From Thermoproteota archaeon (lineage in GTDB: Archaea > Thermoproteota > Methanomethylicia > Methanomethylicales > Methanomethylicaceae), in contig VGLU01000012.1 in assembly GCA_016882195.1 (NCBI GenBank), positions 1 to 35,709 of the forward strand: DNA of 35,709 nucleotides. Reading direction: 5' to 3'. The notes under the pieces were generated by a model. The model was not told where the DNA came from. It made no database searches and saw only the letters and a program-made list of their open reading frames with translations. Made by a program: the position numbers and the translations under genes. This document shows, piece by piece, positions 1,424 to 9,136 of the stretch (its first letter is position 1; each line of letters begins with the position of its first letter).

Positions 1424-2107
1424 TTATCGTATCAGCTCATATACAGTGTAGTTGCTTTCTTTGATAGCTACTCTAAGTGGATATAAAAAAGGTTTGAGTA
1501 TTAGTGCTCCTTTGGCCATCTTTTTTCCCGAGTATGGGTTTATATCATCAAAGGTTGCTCTATCTGTAAAATCGGTCAACATGAAAACAATCCCTTTGCT
1601 ACCTTCCTTAATTAAAGAAGATTTATCAAATGGCTGAGGACAGCGCTTTAGATTAGGCTCAATAAAACCGCTATTAATACAACTACAAACAGAGTCGGAA
1701 CTACCAAAGTATTGTATGTCCATCAATGCCTCTAGCATTAATTGGCTCTTTTCTGGAGGCACATTCAAATGAATATTCAGTGTATCTCCATAAACAATAT
1801 ATTCTCTAATGCCAAAAGTTCTTTCAAATCCTCTTTCGCTCCGTTTTTGTTTCAACCTCTTCATAAAGCTCTTAAAGATGGCTATTTTATTAGGCAAAAC
1901 GAGACCGACAGGCACCGTTTTTATGCCATCAAATAATTTTCTTCCTTTCTCAACGTCTCCACTACGATTGATTATCGATGATACTGCCGCCAGCTTCACA
2001 GTCGATGGGCTTGGGGTCGGTGCTGAAAGCGCGTACGAAGAAGAAAAATATGGTATCCTGTAAGAAAAAGTGCTTGCGAAAGAGTACTCTGCACCAACCC
2101 AAACCAT
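1424..2107 (-). CDS. cas5: Cas5 (I-A-like) Cascade subunit
   Basis: Cas5 caps the 5' handle of the crRNA in the type I interference complex. The 227-residue protein has the characteristic N-terminal RRM-region segment SAPTPSPSTVKLAAVS (about residues 28-43), which matches the Cas5 signature of a Ser/Ala-Pro-rich loop followed by a helix. The ATG overlaps the cas7 stop by one base (TAATG), so it is the last gene of the leftward effector operon. No catalytic His/Tyr residues of the kind used by the processing Cas5d can be assigned, and a separate Cas6 is present, so a structural role is inferred. The gene is AT-rich relative to cas1. Csc1 of subtype I-D is the main alternative, but the neighbouring Csa2-type Cas7 argues for I-A. 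Confidence 0.85.
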   Translation of the reverse strand: MVWVGAEYSFASTFSYRIPYFSSSYALSAPTPSPSTVKLAAVSSIINRSGDVEKGRKLFDGIKTVPVGLVLPNKIAIFKSFMKRLKQKRSERGFERTFGIREYIVYGDTLNIHLNVPPEKSQLMLEALMDIQYFGSSDSVCSCINSGFIEPNLKRCPQPFDKSSLIKEGSKGIVFMLTDFTDRATFDDINPYSGKKMAKGALILKPFLYPLRVAIKESNYTVYELIR

Positions 2108-3015
2108 TACTCTTTGACACCAAGCCTGTAAGGAATCAATTCCTTTAATGTATCCATGGTGGCCAAGAATTCTGAGAGGGATCCAAATTCTTTAATATTC
2201 GCTCCCTTTGAAATCTTCTTTACTTGATCCTTATACCCCTCTATAAGCGGACTTATGATAGGCACTGGTACCCCTTTCTGCGAGGTTACAATGACCCCAT
2301 CAAACGCGCTGAAATGAGGTAAACGAGTTGTGGTCATGGCTCCCTCTAACCGCATCATCATTGACTTGTAAGAATCCAAAACTAGTTCGTATCTTTCTTT
2401 CTGGCTTTTATTGTTAAGTTCGTAGTTGTAATTTACTTCGTTTAGACCCACCCTCCATGGCTGGAAAACTGATACCATCGCGTACACACCAGATCTGGTC
2501 GGTCTATTGTAGATCATTTGTTCTGAAACTTTGGCTTCCTTTCCTTTCTCTCTTTTTTTCTCGCCGAGAGCAACTCGGGTATGAACATGTATATCTCTGT
2601 AGAATTTTTCAGGAATTCCTAGCGCCCACCCGAACTCAACTGTAGACTTTCTGTTAACGGTAGGTTCTTGAACAAGGAATCCATGAGTATCACAAACAAC
2701 ACAATTTAACGCCTCTTTAACCGCATCAGGTGCCCTCTCTTTGCTTGTAACTAGGCTATTACCATCTGCCCTCATGGGGCTCATAACTTTGCATGCCTCA
2801 CAGAGATTTATGTTCGCCGCTTTAGCCAATTGCCAAAGACTTTCAGCATGAATGTGTTTTAACATCTCTCCGCTGATACCATCGGTCTTTGTACCATCTG
2901 CAAGTATCACTGTCCTTGGCTCAGTTACATTCCCTATAGTCCCCTCATTATTCAAAGAGTGTGCATCTATTCTCATCCGCCCTAAGATTCCAATTTCATA
3001 AACCATATTGGCCAT
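2107..3015 (-). CDS. cas7: Cas7 (Csa2/DevR family) Cascade backbone
   Basis: Cas7 polymerises along the crRNA to form the backbone of Cascade. The 302-residue protein shows DevR/Csa2 features: an N-terminal strand IGILGRMRIDAHSLNNEG, the segment GISGEMLKHIHAESLWQLA that in this family contacts RNA, and CVVCDTHGFL at about residues 122-131. The ATG at 3015 is 3 bases after the csa5 stop, so the two are translationally close. Length is normal for Csa2. Four cysteines (CEAC near residues 69-72 and CVVC) could bind a metal; that is only an inference. Codon use is AT-rich in keeping with cas5 and cas8. Confidence 0.9.
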   Translation of the reverse strand: MANMVYEIGILGRMRIDAHSLNNEGTIGNVTEPRTVILADGTKTDGISGEMLKHIHAESLWQLAKAANINLCEACKVMSPMRADGNSLVTSKERAPDAVKEALNCVVCDTHGFLVQEPTVNRKSTVEFGWALGIPEKFYRDIHVHTRVALGEKKREKGKEAKVSEQMIYNRPTRSGVYAMVSVFQPWRVGLNEVNYNYELNNKSQKERYELVLDSYKSMMMRLEGAMTTTRLPHFSAFDGVIVTSQKGVPVPIISPLIEGYKDQVKKISKGANIKEFGSLSEFLATMDTLKELIPYRLGVKE

Positions 3016-3018
3016 TTA

Positions 3019-3369
3019 TTATTCCTCCTTCTCTGGTCTTACGAGCGCGTGTGCTATTAGCGCAGCACTCACAATTTGGACTCCGTATGATTCTGCAAGC
3101 ATTATCAAATCCTTGAGATCTTTATCGGTTGGTTTGAAGGCGAACTTACCAGTTTTCTCTCGCTCGTATCTTCTAGTTTGAGAATCATATCTTCGTAGAA
3201 ATTTCTTTAAAACCTCAATGAATTGATCCATCTTCTCGACGTACTCTAGCTCCACAAGGGATGTATAATCTTCTGCGCCACCATATTCACGCTTGCCAAT
3301 TGCGTATCTTAACGCAGTACCAAAGTTTTCTACAGCGCTATTAGAAAACAGATCATACATCTTGGACAT
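3019..3369 (-). CDS. csa5: Probable Csa5/Cas11a small subunit
   Basis: This 116-residue, mainly helical protein sits between the Cas8-like and Cas7 genes, exactly where type I-A loci encode the small subunit Csa5 (Cas11a), which lines the non-target strand path of Cascade. Visible features are the segment AVENFGTALRYAIGKREYGG at the N-terminus, a basic middle (FLRRYDSQTRRYER) and a hydrophobic C-terminal helix (SYGVQIVSAALIAHALVR). Start options are the ATG at 3369, overlapping the end of the cas8a-like gene by 17 bases, or the ATG at 3360. The assignment rests on size, helix content and position more than on strong motifs, since small subunits are poorly conserved. Confidence 0.65.
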   Translation of the reverse strand: MSKMYDLFSNSAVENFGTALRYAIGKREYGGAEDYTSLVELEYVEKMDQFIEVLKKFLRRYDSQTRRYEREKTGKFAFKPTDKDLKDLIMLAESYGVQIVSAALIAHALVRPEKEE

Positions 3370-4393
3370 TCTTGAGTAAAACCTCCAAAGGTTTCTTGTC
3401 CCAGAGCATTACGTTTTTACTTATCCTCGCACGTATATAAAGGTCTTCGCACCTAATGAAAGTTCTCAAACTCGGATGAATAATGAATTCAGCGAATGAA
3501 AAAGTAAGTTCCTGTTTGATCCCTTTTGCATAGCCATTGCTCATAATTATATCTATCTTCTCTAGGGCATCAAATCCTGCCGGGTCCTGAAGGAATTGTT
3601 CCATAAGGGATAAGCCAAATTTACCTCCACCGCCTGGCTTTGGCTGTTGTCCGGTTCTGCGCATAACATTGAATATTATTGAATCGTACTTACTCGAACG
3701 AGCTGCTTTCCTGCGGGCAATAACACTTGCCATCTTTACCGAGTAGTGCGCCAAAGCGACGTTTGCAGATATGTTACATATATTCTCTTTCGACAGATCA
3801 TCGCGTATCTGTCTGTGTTGTATGAGCCACACATCAGTAGGATTTGGAACTAGATTTAAGATAAAATCGCTACCTACTCGATGATAATTAAAGAATACGC
3901 TTCCAATACACGCGATTGCCCAAGAGTGTTTATCAGTGTAAAGTTGGGATCCTTCGTGATACGTTACCCCTTTCTTTTCTTCTCTGAATCCCTTTGCTGC
4001 AGAAACGTCGATTGATTGATATATGGCTCTGCCATCCTTCACGACATTGCCTATGACAGGATGAAATCCAGGATCCGAATGCGTTTTCAGGATCTCTTGA
4101 TATTCAGTGCTTAAGATTTCTTCAACATCTTTTCTGGGGAATTTTTTCTTTGCATCTTTTCTCTCCCTTACTGTTTGAAACACTTGGCCCCACCCGTCAT
4201 TGTCTACGAACAGTTGAGGATTAACATTTGATGGCAATTTGCCTTCGGTGGAGACCAGATACAAATGCCCTAGATCCTGAATTCTAATGTCTGTAATATC
4301 ATCAGGATTTTTCACCAAATATGCCAGACCAAAAGCCCTCAGGGCATCAAACATTTCGAATCCAGTCTTATTTAAGAAAAGTTGCCCTTCCAA
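3353..4393 (-). CDS. cas8a: Probable Cas8a (Csa4-like) large subunit
   Basis: Large subunits of type I complexes recognise the PAM and recruit Cas3. This 346-residue protein is the only candidate in the operon, has the size of the short Cas8a2/Csa4 family and lies directly between cas3 and the small subunit. No diagnostic catalytic motif is expected or seen. A glycine/proline-rich linker (QQPKPGGGGKFG, about residues 254-265) separates an N-terminal part from a C-terminal helical part. The start is TTG at 4393, chosen because an in-frame stop lies 8 codons upstream and GAGGAA (4405-4400) gives a ribosome binding site 6 bases before it. It could be another Cas8 subtype; a profile search would decide. 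Confidence 0.62.
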   Translation of the reverse strand: MEGQLFLNKTGFEMFDALRAFGLAYLVKNPDDITDIRIQDLGHLYLVSTEGKLPSNVNPQLFVDNDGWGQVFQTVRERKDAKKKFPRKDVEEILSTEYQEILKTHSDPGFHPVIGNVVKDGRAIYQSIDVSAAKGFREEKKGVTYHEGSQLYTDKHSWAIACIGSVFFNYHRVGSDFILNLVPNPTDVWLIQHRQIRDDLSKENICNISANVALAHYSVKMASVIARRKAARSSKYDSIIFNVMRRTGQQPKPGGGGKFGLSLMEQFLQDPAGFDALEKIDIIMSNGYAKGIKQELTFSFAEFIIHPSLRTFIRCEDLYIRARISKNVMLWDKKPLEVLLKNVQDV

Positions 4394-4445: not shown

Positions 4446-6671
4446 CTAAATCACGTTTGTTTGGGAGAATGAAAGTTGATCCGATAATCGTACAAGTCTT
4501 GAAATTATACAATAACTCGTATAGATCTTTACGTTCTCAAATTCGGGTAACTTGGTCTCTAGATATGAAGCCTCACTCGAAGGGCAGACCATATCGAGAG
4601 AAAAAGTTACTCCGTAGGCTTTTTCAATTCTTTTCTCCACGTTATCAACTAAGCCCCTCCAACCGCTTATAAAGCAATATCTCTCAACTTGCATCGCTCT
4701 GGTATGATGGTGATGCCCGATTGCCAATGCTAATATTGTCCTTATCGTCCTCTGCCCAATGACATTTTGAAAGGCCTCTTGTAAAGCATATCCGGAAATC
4801 GTTGCATGAGGTGGTGGTTGTATCTTTTTGTCCCAAGGAGTATGCGCCAATGGGACTTCACTCGCGCCTACTGCCTCTTGCCATCTCTTGTTGAGCTTAC
4901 CAATGTCATGCAAACCTACTGCAAAGGCTATTACTCCACAGGTTTCTCTGCATCCTAATCCAAGAATATTAGCCAACAGTTCTATTGCTTTTCTTTCTTC
5001 AAGAAGCATCTTGTTAAAAGCGCTCAAACTCTTCAGCGCATGCTCAATCCAAGGCTCCTTAGAATACTCCGGGTGGGCAACTTCGTGATCCTTTCTAGGA
5101 TGAATTGCAAGATTGTGCCCTGCCTTCCCGAATACTAAACCGTAATCCTCATCGTAACTTGCATAACTTGGGGGTATTACATAACTTTTATACGGCTTTA
5201 CACTTTTTACTTGAGAAATAATGGGGCAAGGACGACCCCTTTCATCGTCGCTCCATTCCACTAAGTATAAGGGAACGCCTCTCTTATTGCCTTCTCTTTG
5301 CACGAGTCTAACGTCTACATTTAGCCATGGCATATTGAGAACGTCGTTGCCGAGGGAGAGTGGGCTATCGTGAATAGTAAGATTAACATTCAATATTTCT
5401 CTGACGTTTTGTTCTACCTCTATTTTATCTCCTTCAAAGGCAGCCCCTGCCAAACTATTAAGAATGCGCAGCCGTTGGTTCCTGTCATTCATTATCTGCC
5501 TGAAATGTTCACCTAGTAATGCATTAACAAAATGACGCTCTTCATCCCAGTTAATCACTTTGTCGTTAAGATTCTTGATCAAATATGATTTGCATTCGTT
5601 AATTATGGACGTTTCGTAAGGGGCACTATTTTCTATATCAAACACATATGCCTCCCCTGTCCCTCCCTCTCTTGCGCACCTCCCAAGGCGCTGAATTAAG
5701 GCATCTGGAGGTGCTACCTCTGTTAGAATAACATCGCATGAAATATCGAGCCCTACCTCACAGACTTGAGTGGTTATCAAGCATCCTGCCTTTTTAGCTC
5801 TGAACTGTTCCTTCATCTCCACCTCTTTTCTTTGCCTGTCTTCCGGCAAAAATCTAGAATGTAGCAAGAAAGAGGTAGGAATTTTGTCTTTGATCCTTGA
5901 ATAAAGTTCCTGTGCTCTGGAAACCGTGTTACACACGACTATCACATTATTATCCTTGAACTTTTCCAAAATGTCTTCATCAATCAAACCCCTCCCCGTC
6001 CAATGTAGAACCACCTTCCGGTTGCGCCTCTTCTCGACATATTCGTCTTTGCCCTCAACCAGCGCAAACCCTAATCCGTCAGTCAGATAGTTAACGAAGG
6101 CATCAGGCAGGGTTGCCGACATAACTACGGAGGGTAAGTTAAGCCGCTTTGCTCTCTCGACAAGAACAAGCATTGTCTGGAGCCCTAAACGATGATCATA
6201 AGTATGCACCTCATCGAAACACAACATTGAAGAGGTGGCCGCACCAGCTGGTATGTTTCCCAGATAGACTGGAAGACTCAGCGGAGTGGCACAGTAGGCA
6301 CCAACTGTCTGGTCAATAGTAGCAACAATCAAATCTGCCTTGAAAAATGGGTCGCCGTCCGATTTAGCTCCATGTTGAACCGCGACTTTTGCTGTCTCAC
6401 CAATATTTTTAATTTTGGCAATTATCCTGTCAGCAACATCATCAGCCAGAGCCCTTGTAGGAAGTGAATATATTAGGCGTGAAGGCAGCTTATCCCTTCT
6501 GCCCATAAGAAACGGAATCACGCAAGCTTCAGTTTTGCCAGACCCACAGGGCGCTCTAATTACCACCGAATTGCCTTCAAGGATCTTCTCAGCAGCCTCT
6601 TTTTGATGCTTATATGGGGGATTACCTCCTAAACTTATTCTAAACACTTCTTCGACATTCTGACTAGACAT
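4446..6671 (-). CDS. cas3: Cas3 helicase-nuclease with C-terminal HD domain
   Basis: Cas3 unwinds and degrades DNA marked by Cascade. The 741-residue chain begins with the SF2 helicase: Walker A APCGSGKTE (residues 40-48), DEVH box (153-156), SAT (185-187), VGLD (306-309) and motif VI QRLGRCAREG (327-336). The HD nuclease follows at the C-terminus: His544, His588-Asp589 in VGLHDIGKLNKRWQ, His622 in HATISGYAL, the run HHHH at 653-656 and a closing Asp731 in RLSDQL. This order is the reverse of the common HD-helicase Cas3, and subtype I-A usually has helicase (Cas3') and HD (Cas3'') as separate genes, so this looks like a Cas3'-Cas3'' fusion. All key residues are present, so it is probably active. 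The ATG at 6671 lies 3 bases after the cas6 stop. Confidence 0.93.
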   Translation of the reverse strand: MSSQNVEEVFRISLGGNPPYKHQKEAAEKILEGNSVVIRAPCGSGKTEACVIPFLMGRRDKLPSRLIYSLPTRALADDVADRIIAKIKNIGETAKVAVQHGAKSDGDPFFKADLIVATIDQTVGAYCATPLSLPVYLGNIPAGAATSSMLCFDEVHTYDHRLGLQTMLVLVERAKRLNLPSVVMSATLPDAFVNYLTDGLGFALVEGKDEYVEKRRNRKVVLHWTGRGLIDEDILEKFKDNNVIVVCNTVSRAQELYSRIKDKIPTSFLLHSRFLPEDRQRKEVEMKEQFRAKKAGCLITTQVCEVGLDISCDVILTEVAPPDALIQRLGRCAREGGTGEAYVFDIENSAPYETSIINECKSYLIKNLNDKVINWDEERHFVNALLGEHFRQIMNDRNQRLRILNSLAGAAFEGDKIEVEQNVREILNVNLTIHDSPLSLGNDVLNMPWLNVDVRLVQREGNKRGVPLYLVEWSDDERGRPCPIISQVKSVKPYKSYVIPPSYASYDEDYGLVFGKAGHNLAIHPRKDHEVAHPEYSKEPWIEHALKSLSAFNKMLLEERKAIELLANILGLGCRETCGVIAFAVGLHDIGKLNKRWQEAVGASEVPLAHTPWDKKIQPPPHATISGYALQEAFQNVIGQRTIRTILALAIGHHHHTRAMQVERYCFISGWRGLVDNVEKRIEKAYGVTFSLDMVCPSSEASYLETKLPEFENVKIYTSYCIISRLVRLSDQLSFSQTNVI

Positions 6672-6674
6672 AAT

Positions 6675-7475
6675 CTATTTACCTGCCCTCCTCTCGAGGC
6701 GTTGAGCAACACCAAAGCCTGCGGTTCTATTCTTTCCTACATTGGAATACTCTGCTAAACTGCCCAAGCAATTCGTTAACCTTTGCCACCTTCCATTATC
6801 CCCCAATCGATATGCCACCCACCCCGTGAAGCCTATTGCCTTCCCCTTCCCGGTCGATTCTTGCCTTGTCTCAAGGGAGTATCCCGAGACTCCTGCCTCT
6901 CTTCCGAGCCACTTGAGGTACGTTTCCTTCTCTTGCCCCTCGAACTTCCTGTCAGAGTACATGTTCCAAAGACTCAGGAGGCCTCCGAAGACCCTCTTGG
7001 GCTCCGGGAATAGGCAGTAGTACCTCTGCCCTAGCGCCGCGAAGCAAGTAGGTGTATGGAAGTACAACCTGAACGCCTCAACGGGCTTTGCCTCATCCCA
7101 CAGTTCTCTGTAGCTCTTGGTTTTCATATTCACCGAGGCTATCCTGAACACCGTGTCATAAATCAGGAAGCTCTGCTTTGACTCGAAGCACCTCAAAAGT
7201 AACGTTGCGTAATCGTCCGCCAGAAACCTCACTCCCACCCAACATGGGTGCTCGGGGTTCAAGACGTAACCCCCTGCGGTTCTAGCCTTGCTCCGGAACC
7301 TCAGCGGCGTGACCGCGTATGCCTTCCTAATGTTCGGCTCGTGGAGGACCTGAGAGGCGGCCGGATCCACCCGGCGTATCGCCTGCAGCAGTATCCCCCG
7401 GGCAAGGTAGCCCGTGAAGTGGGGCATCCTCACCTCCTTCTCCCCGTACATCTCGAACTCAAACTCTACCGGCAA
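6675..7475 (-). CDS. cas6: Cas6 crRNA-processing endoribonuclease
   Basis: Cas6 cuts the long CRISPR transcript within the repeats. The 266-residue protein ends with the glycine-rich loop of the second ferredoxin-like fold (YSNVGKNRTAGFGVAQRLE), and the preceding FTGWVAYRL strand also fits Cas6 C-terminal domains. The start is TTG at 7475; an in-frame stop is 4 codons further upstream and no ATG is available. Histidines such as the one in YFHTPTCF are candidates for the variable active site, but which residue acts cannot be told by eye. The gene follows the ATPase by 28 bases and precedes cas3 by 3, so it is in the same operon. Its 5' two thirds are GC-richer than cas3 and its 3' end shares the AT-richer style. 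Confidence 0.85.
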   Translation of the reverse strand: MPVEFEFEMYGEKEVRMPHFTGYLARGILLQAIRRVDPAASQVLHEPNIRKAYAVTPLRFRSKARTAGGYVLNPEHPCWVGVRFLADDYATLLLRCFESKQSFLIYDTVFRIASVNMKTKSYRELWDEAKPVEAFRLYFHTPTCFAALGQRYYCLFPEPKRVFGGLLSLWNMYSDRKFEGQEKETYLKWLGREAGVSGYSLETRQESTGKGKAIGFTGWVAYRLGDNGRWQRLTNCLGSLAEYSNVGKNRTAGFGVAQRLERRAGK

Positions 7476-7503
7476 GTCTATCGACCACTATTTGAATCGT
7501 CAT

Positions 7504-8856
7504 TCATCTAATGAGGTCTTTCAGATCAAAGACGAGGTACCCTTCCTTCCTCAAACTTTCCTTGTCCTCTATTACTTTGGCCACTACACCGAAATACGCC
7601 CTTCGGTCTTCAAGGCGCCAGCCTACCAGTTTACTCCTCTCCTCCAAGCCCTTTAAGACCCTCAGCGCATCTTTCCTAGTCAGCCTGCTCCATTTCACCT
7701 CAAAGAATGCGATCTCCCTCGAGGCCTCCCTCAATGCCACCAGGTCGATCTCCGCGGTTCGCCTCTCGCCCCCCTTCCTGTCCCTGTACGCCCCCCACCA
7801 CCTTCCCATCCTATCCGGCTTAAAGGGAGGACGCACGATCTCCTCCGCTACCCCCTCGAACTTCAGCCCTACGAACTTGCCGGCATTCGTGATAAAGTTC
7901 CGCTTAGCCTCCTCCCCCCTTCCGAGCAAGTCCGGGTAGAATCTCCAGACGAACCTGAACCAGAAGTCCAGCAAATTGGAGGTTATCGAGTAGATCCTTT
8001 TGCCCTTCCCGGCGATGCTCTCCCTCTTTTCTATGACCTCATAATCCCTCTCCAGCAGGTAGATGTACTTTGTAACCTTGGTCGCCTCCTCTCCTATGTA
8101 TCCAGCTATCTCGCCGAAGGTGTTGACAGAGTTCGCTATTGCCTCCAGGATGCTGAAGAAGGTCTTGAACTCCTTCCCGAACTCCTCCCTCAGCATGACC
8201 CGAACCTCCTCGACCAGCGGGTAAGGGTCCTCAAAGAACATCGATGAGATAAACCCCAGCGGATCCCCCTTGACCTTCCCGAGGGTCTCGTAATACTTAG
8301 GAATTCCACCGAAGACTGAGTAAAGCACCACCGCGTTCTCTGCAGAGTAGCCAAGGTCCCGGCAGAGCTCAGCAACTGTCCTGAAGTCAAGCTCCCCCAG
8401 CTTCAATACCGTATCGAACCGCCCGTAAACAGGGCTCTTGTAGTTCTCGACGAGCTTCTTCGTCATGCTGATCATCGAGCCTGAGACCACGGCCTTCCTC
8501 TCCCTGTACCTGTCCAGGAGCCTCTGCAGGTCGGAGATGAAGCCTTTATTCACCTTCAGGAGGTTCTGGAACTCGTCAATGAAGACAACGCGGTCGTCCT
8601 TCATGTTCAGCAGGTATTCAACCACGTCCTTCATGGAGGTCAGTTCTGGGATGTATATGCCGCTCTTCCGGACCTCTTCAAGCCAGTCCTTGCAGACCAA
8701 CCTCTCCTTCTTCTCGGCCACAAAGAGCGTTATGCATCTCTCTTTGAAGGTCTCTTCCACCAAACGGGTCTTGCCAACCCTCCTCCTGCCTATGACCACC
8801 ACCCTGTCATACTTCTTTAGAAGTTCGGTCTCCCTCTCCCTGTCATAGAACCTCAT
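7504..8856 (-). CDS. Archaeal ATPase with C-terminal PD-(D/E)XK-like domain
   Basis: This is a member of the archaeal AAA-type ATPase family that begins with MRFYDREREL-like sequence. In the 450-residue form the P-loop is GRRRVGKT (residues 23-30), Walker B is VFIDEFQ (91-97), SGS (125-127) fits sensor 1, a winged-helix-like region lies around 230-300, and the C-terminal DUF234-type region contains AEIDLVAL (368-375) and FFEVKWS (384-390). The last two resemble a PD-(D/E)XK nuclease core (Asp371, Glu386-x-Lys388). A longer reading from 8988 is rejected because it runs through the promoter palindromes. The gene is the first of the cas operon, 28 bases before cas6. Members of this family are scattered in archaeal genomes, often in mobile or defence settings; no role in CRISPR immunity is established, so any link here is inference from position. 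Confidence 0.85.
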   Translation of the reverse strand: MRFYDRERETELLKKYDRVVVIGRRRVGKTRLVEETFKERCITLFVAEKKERLVCKDWLEEVRKSGIYIPELTSMKDVVEYLLNMKDDRVVFIDEFQNLLKVNKGFISDLQRLLDRYRERKAVVSGSMISMTKKLVENYKSPVYGRFDTVLKLGELDFRTVAELCRDLGYSAENAVVLYSVFGGIPKYYETLGKVKGDPLGFISSMFFEDPYPLVEEVRVMLREEFGKEFKTFFSILEAIANSVNTFGEIAGYIGEEATKVTKYIYLLERDYEVIEKRESIAGKGKRIYSITSNLLDFWFRFVWRFYPDLLGRGEEAKRNFITNAGKFVGLKFEGVAEEIVRPPFKPDRMGRWWGAYRDRKGGERRTAEIDLVALREASREIAFFEVKWSRLTRKDALRVLKGLEERSKLVGWRLEDRRAYFGVVAKVIEDKESLRKEGYLVFDLKDLIR

Positions 8857-8862
8857 AAATAT

Positions 8863-8893
8863 ATACCTGTTAGGTATTATACCTGATAGGTAT
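8863..8893. promoter_or_regulatory. Two tandem 15-base palindromes (putative operator)
   Basis: ATACCT-GTT-AGGTAT (8863-8877) and ATACCT-GAT-AGGTAT (8879-8893) are perfect 6-base inverted repeats with a 3-base centre, repeated every 16 bases. They lie between a TATA-like element and the ATG of the ATPase gene at 8856, covering the expected transcription start. Such placement fits a repressor site. The binding protein is unknown; autoregulation by the ATPase winged-helix region is one inference. Confidence 0.7.
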
Positions 8894-8906
8894 TTAAAAA
8901 TATTGG
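8892..8906 (-). promoter_or_regulatory. TATA-like box of the ATPase-cas operon
   Basis: The minus strand reads CCAATATTTTTAAAT just upstream of the tandem palindromes, centred about 42 bases before the ATPase ATG. With the usual archaeal spacing of about 25-27 bases, transcription would start near 8871, inside the first palindrome. It is the clearest promoter of the leftward cas operon. Confidence 0.5.
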
Positions 8907-9136
8907 TAGGGCCTCCAGCATGATGGGGTTTTCGACCTCTTGGTTTTGCACACCCTTCTTCGTTGCTGAGAGAGAACAGTCCATCCATATCGATTATGAG
9001 TAGAGCGTGCCTGAAGGAGCGCCCATGCGAGAGGAGTTGCGCATTGGGTAAAAATAATGGCGCGGTTCCGATCTGCGCGATAGAACTCCTGCTCCTCTCC
9101 CACCAGCACTCCAGATCTATGGTGGGAAACGAAAAG
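8907..9136. other. Intergenic region, no gene recognised
   Basis: Together with the promoter elements on each side, this forms a 320-base gap between the divergent ATPase and serA-like genes. A minus-strand reading frame of 87 codons (9157-8894) covers it, but it resembles nothing familiar, overlaps both promoters and has no ribosome binding site. No CRISPR repeats, tRNA or clear inverted repeats are seen. Confidence 0.5.

Follow-up and report, generated by a model that had tools for sequence, protein, structure and literature searches.

A mobile, self-contained gene of the defence-candidate family PDC-S27 heads the type I-A cas operon of this Thermoproteota archaeon, where its product would probably bind an operator of its own and repress the gene's own promoter, which would drive the cas genes as well; we give this reading a probability of about 60%. 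The analysis covered a stretch of 35,709 nucleotides (hereafter the window), corresponding to positions 1–35,709 of contig VGLU01000012.1 (assembly GCA_016882195.1).

The gene occupies nt 7504–8856 of the minus strand and yields a stop-free translation of 450 amino acids. The same open frame extends upstream to another ATG at 8988; the ATG at 8856 was favoured as start codon because of the conserved N-terminus MRFYDRE and of the tandem repeat lying just before it. Two Pfam domains were recognized in the protein, ATPase_2 (residues 3–190, 6e-13) and DUF234 (residues 299–398, 9e-15). In an alignment of 54 relatives, the Walker A residues G23, G28 and K29 and the Walker B residues D94 and E95 were invariant, and sequence, model and fold concur in an AAA+ ATPase with Walker A and B motifs and a winged helix after the AAA+ lid. 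In the C-terminal domain D371, K388 and E369 were likewise invariant, and E386 and E334 were at least 90% conserved; PD-(D/E)XK motifs I–III (E334, E369/D371 and E386-x-K388, respectively) are all present in the 54 sequences, and the corresponding helix-strand pattern is seen in a confident AlphaFold model (pLDDT 94). Since its active-site residues are conserved across the alignment, reading this domain as a nuclease appears right at the sequence level, and it is a predicted PD-(D/E)XK nuclease. The initial annotation had indeed described a P-loop ATPase with a PD-(D/E)XK-like C-terminal region, naming Asp371 and Glu386-x-Lys388 as nuclease residues, and both points held.

Among solved structures the closest in fold are two archaeal ATPases, 2qen and 2fna, which cover the AAA+ and winged-helix part: these 350-residue proteins align to residues 3–287 of the window protein only, and are without its C-terminal nuclease domain. 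Next in similarity are the Cdc6/Orc1 AAA+ winged-helix DNA binders and the plant NLR resistosomes. A search of the PDB with the single ATPase sequence gave no match, while a profile search retrieved 2qen, 2fna and the TnsC of CRISPR-associated transposons, the likeness to TnsC being an AAA+ resemblance only. An AAA+ core followed by a winged helix, over residues 1 to ~290, is also what the window protein has in common with archaeal ATPases of the ATPase_2 (PF01637) plus DUF234 (PF03008) type.

Over nearly its full length (residues 18–449 of 450) the protein was identified by PADLOC as PDC-S27 (2.4e-33), a model matched by all of the 54 aligned relatives. By its sequence it is a new member of this known defence-candidate family and, as previously supposed, not a known Cas protein. 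A survey of archaeal immune systems from 2026 lists PDC-S27, an ATPase fused to PD-(D/E)XK, as a putative defence candidate abundant in archaea, and with 3503 detected in one survey the family ranks among the commonest archaeal defence candidates (PMC12988326). The window protein agrees with the family in domain order, whole-length profile match and archaeal distribution, whereas the putative start-codon operator and the position in front of the cas genes described below are unmentioned in the sources read, where PDC-S27 figures as a putative single-gene candidate. Nothing on the control of PDC-S27, or on the signal it senses, was found in the open-access literature searched. PDC-S01 and AAA_14-type ATPases share the ATPase plus PD-(D/E)XK design, but they match the window protein at 8e-12, against 2.4e-33 for PDC-S27, and are weaker matches in most family members.

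Downstream of the ATPase gene, and on the same strand, lie cas6 (nt 6675–7475, with a TTG start at 7475), cas3 (nt 4446–6671, coding for a helicase with a C-terminal HD domain), cas8a (nt 3353–4393, 1.4e-31), csa5/cas11a (nt 3019–3369, 3.2e-31), cas7 (csa2, nt 2107–3015) and cas5a (nt 1424–2107, 1.6e-26). On the plus strand, cas4 (nt 773–1375) is convergent with this operon and cas1 (nt 13–798) has lost its 5′ part at the contig end. The presence of cas8a, csa5, cas7, cas5, cas3 and cas6 assigns the locus to type I-A, with which cas4 and cas1 are also shared; it departs from that type by the extra promoter-proximal ATPase and by having cas6 first without a leader of its own. Cas3 unites helicase and HD nuclease in one chain, with the HD domain at the C-terminus, while in type I-A the two are usually encoded by separate genes. 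No CRISPR array was found in the window.

The ATPase gene precedes cas6 by a gap of exactly 28 bases (nt 7476–7503), as initially annotated. This gap was inspected for a separate promoter or terminator, and none was obtained: the motif scan revealed nothing TATA-like over the 260 bases that precede cas6, gap included, and neither a terminator-like site nor a repeat-like leader was found between the two genes. A sigma-70 promoter scan gave one chance-level match, which was discarded, the sigma-70 consensus being not applicable to archaea. As no TATA-like motif or terminator was found in between, a transcript shared by the ATPase and the cas genes, considered probable in the initial annotation, is likely. 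A weak promoter may lie inside the ATPase coding sequence.

In relatives from the same phylum cas6 is preceded by a non-coding leader, as observed at G056:C2 (operon head), G056:C1, G040 and G049 (cas6 alone); the gene order at G056:C2, cas6-cas3-cas8a, is that of the window. Immediately ahead of the start codon of cas6 this leader shows AATCCCA-n-GGGAGTTGA or a sequence close to it, and it carries a hairpin element. In G056:C1 it resembles the CRISPR repeat of its own genome (...AAAATCCCAACAAAGGGAATTGAAAG; 6 of 2000 shuffles as good), thus suggesting a leader bound by Cas6. The same G056:C1 repeat was compared with the other leaders, giving a good match in G040 (0/2000 shuffles as good) and weak ones in G056:C2 and G049 (141/2000 and 120/2000, respectively); against the host's own repeat the match is clear only in G056:C1. 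When the RNA of the cas6 leaders was folded, stems did form, with a stability not above that of shuffled sequences. The repeat-like elements just ahead of cas6 in phylum relatives (L165, L167, L168 and L184) are possible sites of Cas6 self-regulation. Upstream of cas6 in the window nothing repeat-like was found (861 of 2000 shuffles as good). Since the non-coding leader of the relatives is missing here, the ATPase promoter most likely drives the cas operon, and with no promoter detected for cas6-cas3-cas8a-csa5-cas7-cas5 themselves, the whole series would be read from it.

The genome holds two further cas6 copies. One (C30:7109–7888, L096) is 78% identical to that of the window and has no other cas genes on its contig, which ends exactly at the first codon of this cas6; the same contig holds a further ATPase ORF whose C-terminus is nuclease-like (C30:168–1472, L096). 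The other copy (C40:933–1118; L186, L193) is broken, 87% identical over residues 1–62, and sits directly behind a VapBC pair (RHH and PIN), about 5 bases after the vapC stop. Homology among the three copies starts at codon 1. The genome also gave 15 IS605 OrfB/TnpB-like matches (PF01385), of which most relatives of its family have none.

Reading toward the ATPase gene, the upstream region shows the TATA box TTTAAATA (motif match, nt 8891–8898, minus strand) at 42 bases before the start codon, then a putative operator (nt 8892–8864) and then the ATG. The operator consists of two tandem 13-bp palindromes, TACCTnnnAGGTA, arranged as TACCTATCAGGTA-TAA-TACCTAACAGGTA on the minus strand, with centres at 8886 and 8870, i.e., 16 bp apart; 0.00 such exact palindromes are expected by chance in the window. 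Nearly identical arms are present in a Thermococcus relative (L031) and in an archaeal relative (L033), a further Thermococcus relative (L032) also has these arms, and the remaining family members have arms quite different in sequence in the same layout. When the region from −55 to +20 around the start codon was compared between 113 ATPase genes and 332 control genes, both the inverted-repeat score (7.6 vs 4.6, P 3e-33) and the direct-repeat score (8.0 vs 5.2, P 1e-18) were higher in the family, with individually significant repeats in 58% of ATPase genes against 9% of controls. Among 65 ATPase genes with a strong repeat, 41 had their direct repeats spaced by 15 bp and 11 by 16 bp, and no spacing peak was seen in 620 control genes. 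Relative to the start codon, mean dyad symmetry in the family is highest at −13, −5.5 and −20.5, and in 111 genes the symmetric site keeps a constant place between the TATA box and the ATG, with which it often overlaps.

A site that diverges in sequence and not in position, and that travels with the gene and not with the neighbourhood, is most readily understood as an operator belonging to the gene itself, and we infer that the ATPase gene is autoregulated through it. A covariation test of operator and domain identities did not single out the winged helix as the part that would read the operator: with the other domains taken into account, operator similarity and winged-helix identity gave a partial r of 0.02 (permutation P 0.21), in a similarity measure that is noisy in AT-rich promoters. 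Palindromic operators between the TATA box and the gene's own start codon are known from autorepressing archaeal regulators and toxin-antitoxin operons; unlike these, the presumed regulator here is an ATPase-nuclease, encoded by a single gene without antitoxin partner. It had been suggested that the ATPase captured the cas promoter. This was rejected, as a TATA box and a putative tandem palindromic operator belong to the gene itself, as they do in nearly all family members wherever these are located; if either side took over a promoter, it would be the cas genes that now stand under that of the ATPase. Open-access papers on DUF234 and CRISPR, COG1672 and CRISPR, or PF01637 and palindromes contained nothing relevant, and neither the family-wide putative start-codon operator nor the placement of the ATPase as first gene before cas6 was found in the open-access literature searched.

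The occurrence of the ATPase is patchy, with any relative present in 20 of 61 close genomes, and its best full-length matches are in Thermococcus (52–54% identity), thus indicating a gene that moves horizontally. One scan of viral contigs retrieved no close viral relatives. To the side of this, a Thermococcus MAG (L031) has three family ATPases within 21 kb and no cas gene alongside. In a survey of 300 genomes of the phylum, 61 were found to carry 109 ATPase loci (E 1e-15 or better); cas6, cas3, cas1 and RAMP genes were located in these 61 genomes and the window was left out, leaving 108 loci. Of these, 5 have a cas6 within 2.5 kb, where random placement would give 0.54 (P 2e-4), and 9 (~8%) have any cas marker within 5 kb, where it would give 2.2 (P 3e-4). 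As G170/G195 and G048/G185 are orthologous loci in one genus, the five cas6 cases amount to about four independent ones. In the same genomes, no PIN toxin among the best-scoring 148 matches and none of 102 IS605 genes lay within 2.5 kb of cas6. The family thus prefers cas surroundings and is not confined to places away from them, as the opposite outcome would have had it; the recurrence is real but loose. Beyond these 61 genomes, two different family ATPases occur in a type I-B cas locus (L033:10001–20273), both on the strand opposite to the cas genes, one between cas1/cas4 and cas3 and the other sharing 4 bases with the end of cas6; in L062 one family ATPase stands beside cas4.

How the ATPase came to stand before cas6 could also be explained by chance. 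As a defence-island or selfish neighbour, an autonomous mobile or addictive gene might simply have landed there, with passive read-through only and no functional link to CRISPR. More than 90% of the family members lie away from cas, the orientation to cas6 varies, and the Thermococcus relatives at 52–54% identity speak for transfer; moreover, the broken cas6 of the same genome directly behind the unrelated VapBC module suggests that the head of cas6 accepts mobile genes. On the other side stand the cas6 enrichment, not common to PIN or IS605 genes, and the intact frame and 28-base junction, which keep the ATPase-cas6 pair co-transcribable. Taken together, we consider a purely chance neighbourhood rather unlikely, though a serious competitor. 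The initial annotation also proposed an accessory effector; in that case the ATPase would work with the type I-A machinery, e.g., degrading DNA opened by Cascade/Cas3 or taking part in spacer capture beside Cas4. Its place as first gene of the operon, its intact PD-(D/E)XK site, the enrichment near cas above chance and the relatives in or beside type I-B and I-A loci (two copies in L033, L062, G048/G185, G073) are in line with such a role; but the cas-linked relatives are a small minority with varying subtype, position and strand, many hosts carry the ATPase away from any cas gene, and none of the other cas6-linked relatives was found co-directional with cas6. Indeed, no same-strand recurrence in cas operons across lineages was observed, and the tandem arrangement with the ATPase leading into cas6 was met in no other genome of the sample. 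That proposal is weakly supported at best and in our judgement improbable; a dedicated Cas accessory effector is unsupported.

The tandem palindromes, in turn, might serve the nuclease domain as a site for cleavage or recombination, homing-like or for transposition, rather than as an operator. PD-(D/E)XK enzymes often read palindromes, and there is sequence resemblance between the family and TnsC ATPases. In the covariation test the nuclease domain showed a slightly better correlation with operator similarity than the winged helix did. This explanation fits poorly with the constant location of the site, after the TATA box and before the start codon, in 111 genes; besides, no matching palindrome follows the gene within the window and the paired palindrome is a single site in its own genome. 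We regard it as very improbable.

The reading we prefer, a mobile PDC-S27 gene controlling itself and the cas operon, would run as follows. The gene stands where a non-coding leader precedes cas6 in relatives, and brings its own TATA promoter and putative tandem palindromic operator; the ATPase, alone or as a dimer, would bind the operator and repress its promoter, and read-through from this promoter would reach the cas genes, so that an operon read in this way would share both repression and release. Upon an infection signal the nucleotide state of the ATPase might change and the protein leave the operator, thus raising the expression of the ATPase and the Cascade/Cas3 genes alike, and its nuclease activity might be directed at DNA or RNA. 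Only tentatively, and with more doubt than confidence, do we extend the scheme to a self-repressing immune ATPase-nuclease that senses viral attack, releases its operator and switches on CRISPR together with itself, the start-codon operator being general in PDC-S27.

If this were true, an innate sensor would control the expression of CRISPR, and PDC-S27 in general would possess a tandem operator at the start codon that has not been described so far. The family-wide, position-fixed putative self-operator would offer a direct handle on the control of PDC-S27. The window also suggests that a mobile gene can take the place of a repeat-like leader of cas6, and it would represent a natural case in which the control exerted by the ATPase spans a whole CRISPR operon, thus linking two layers of immunity.
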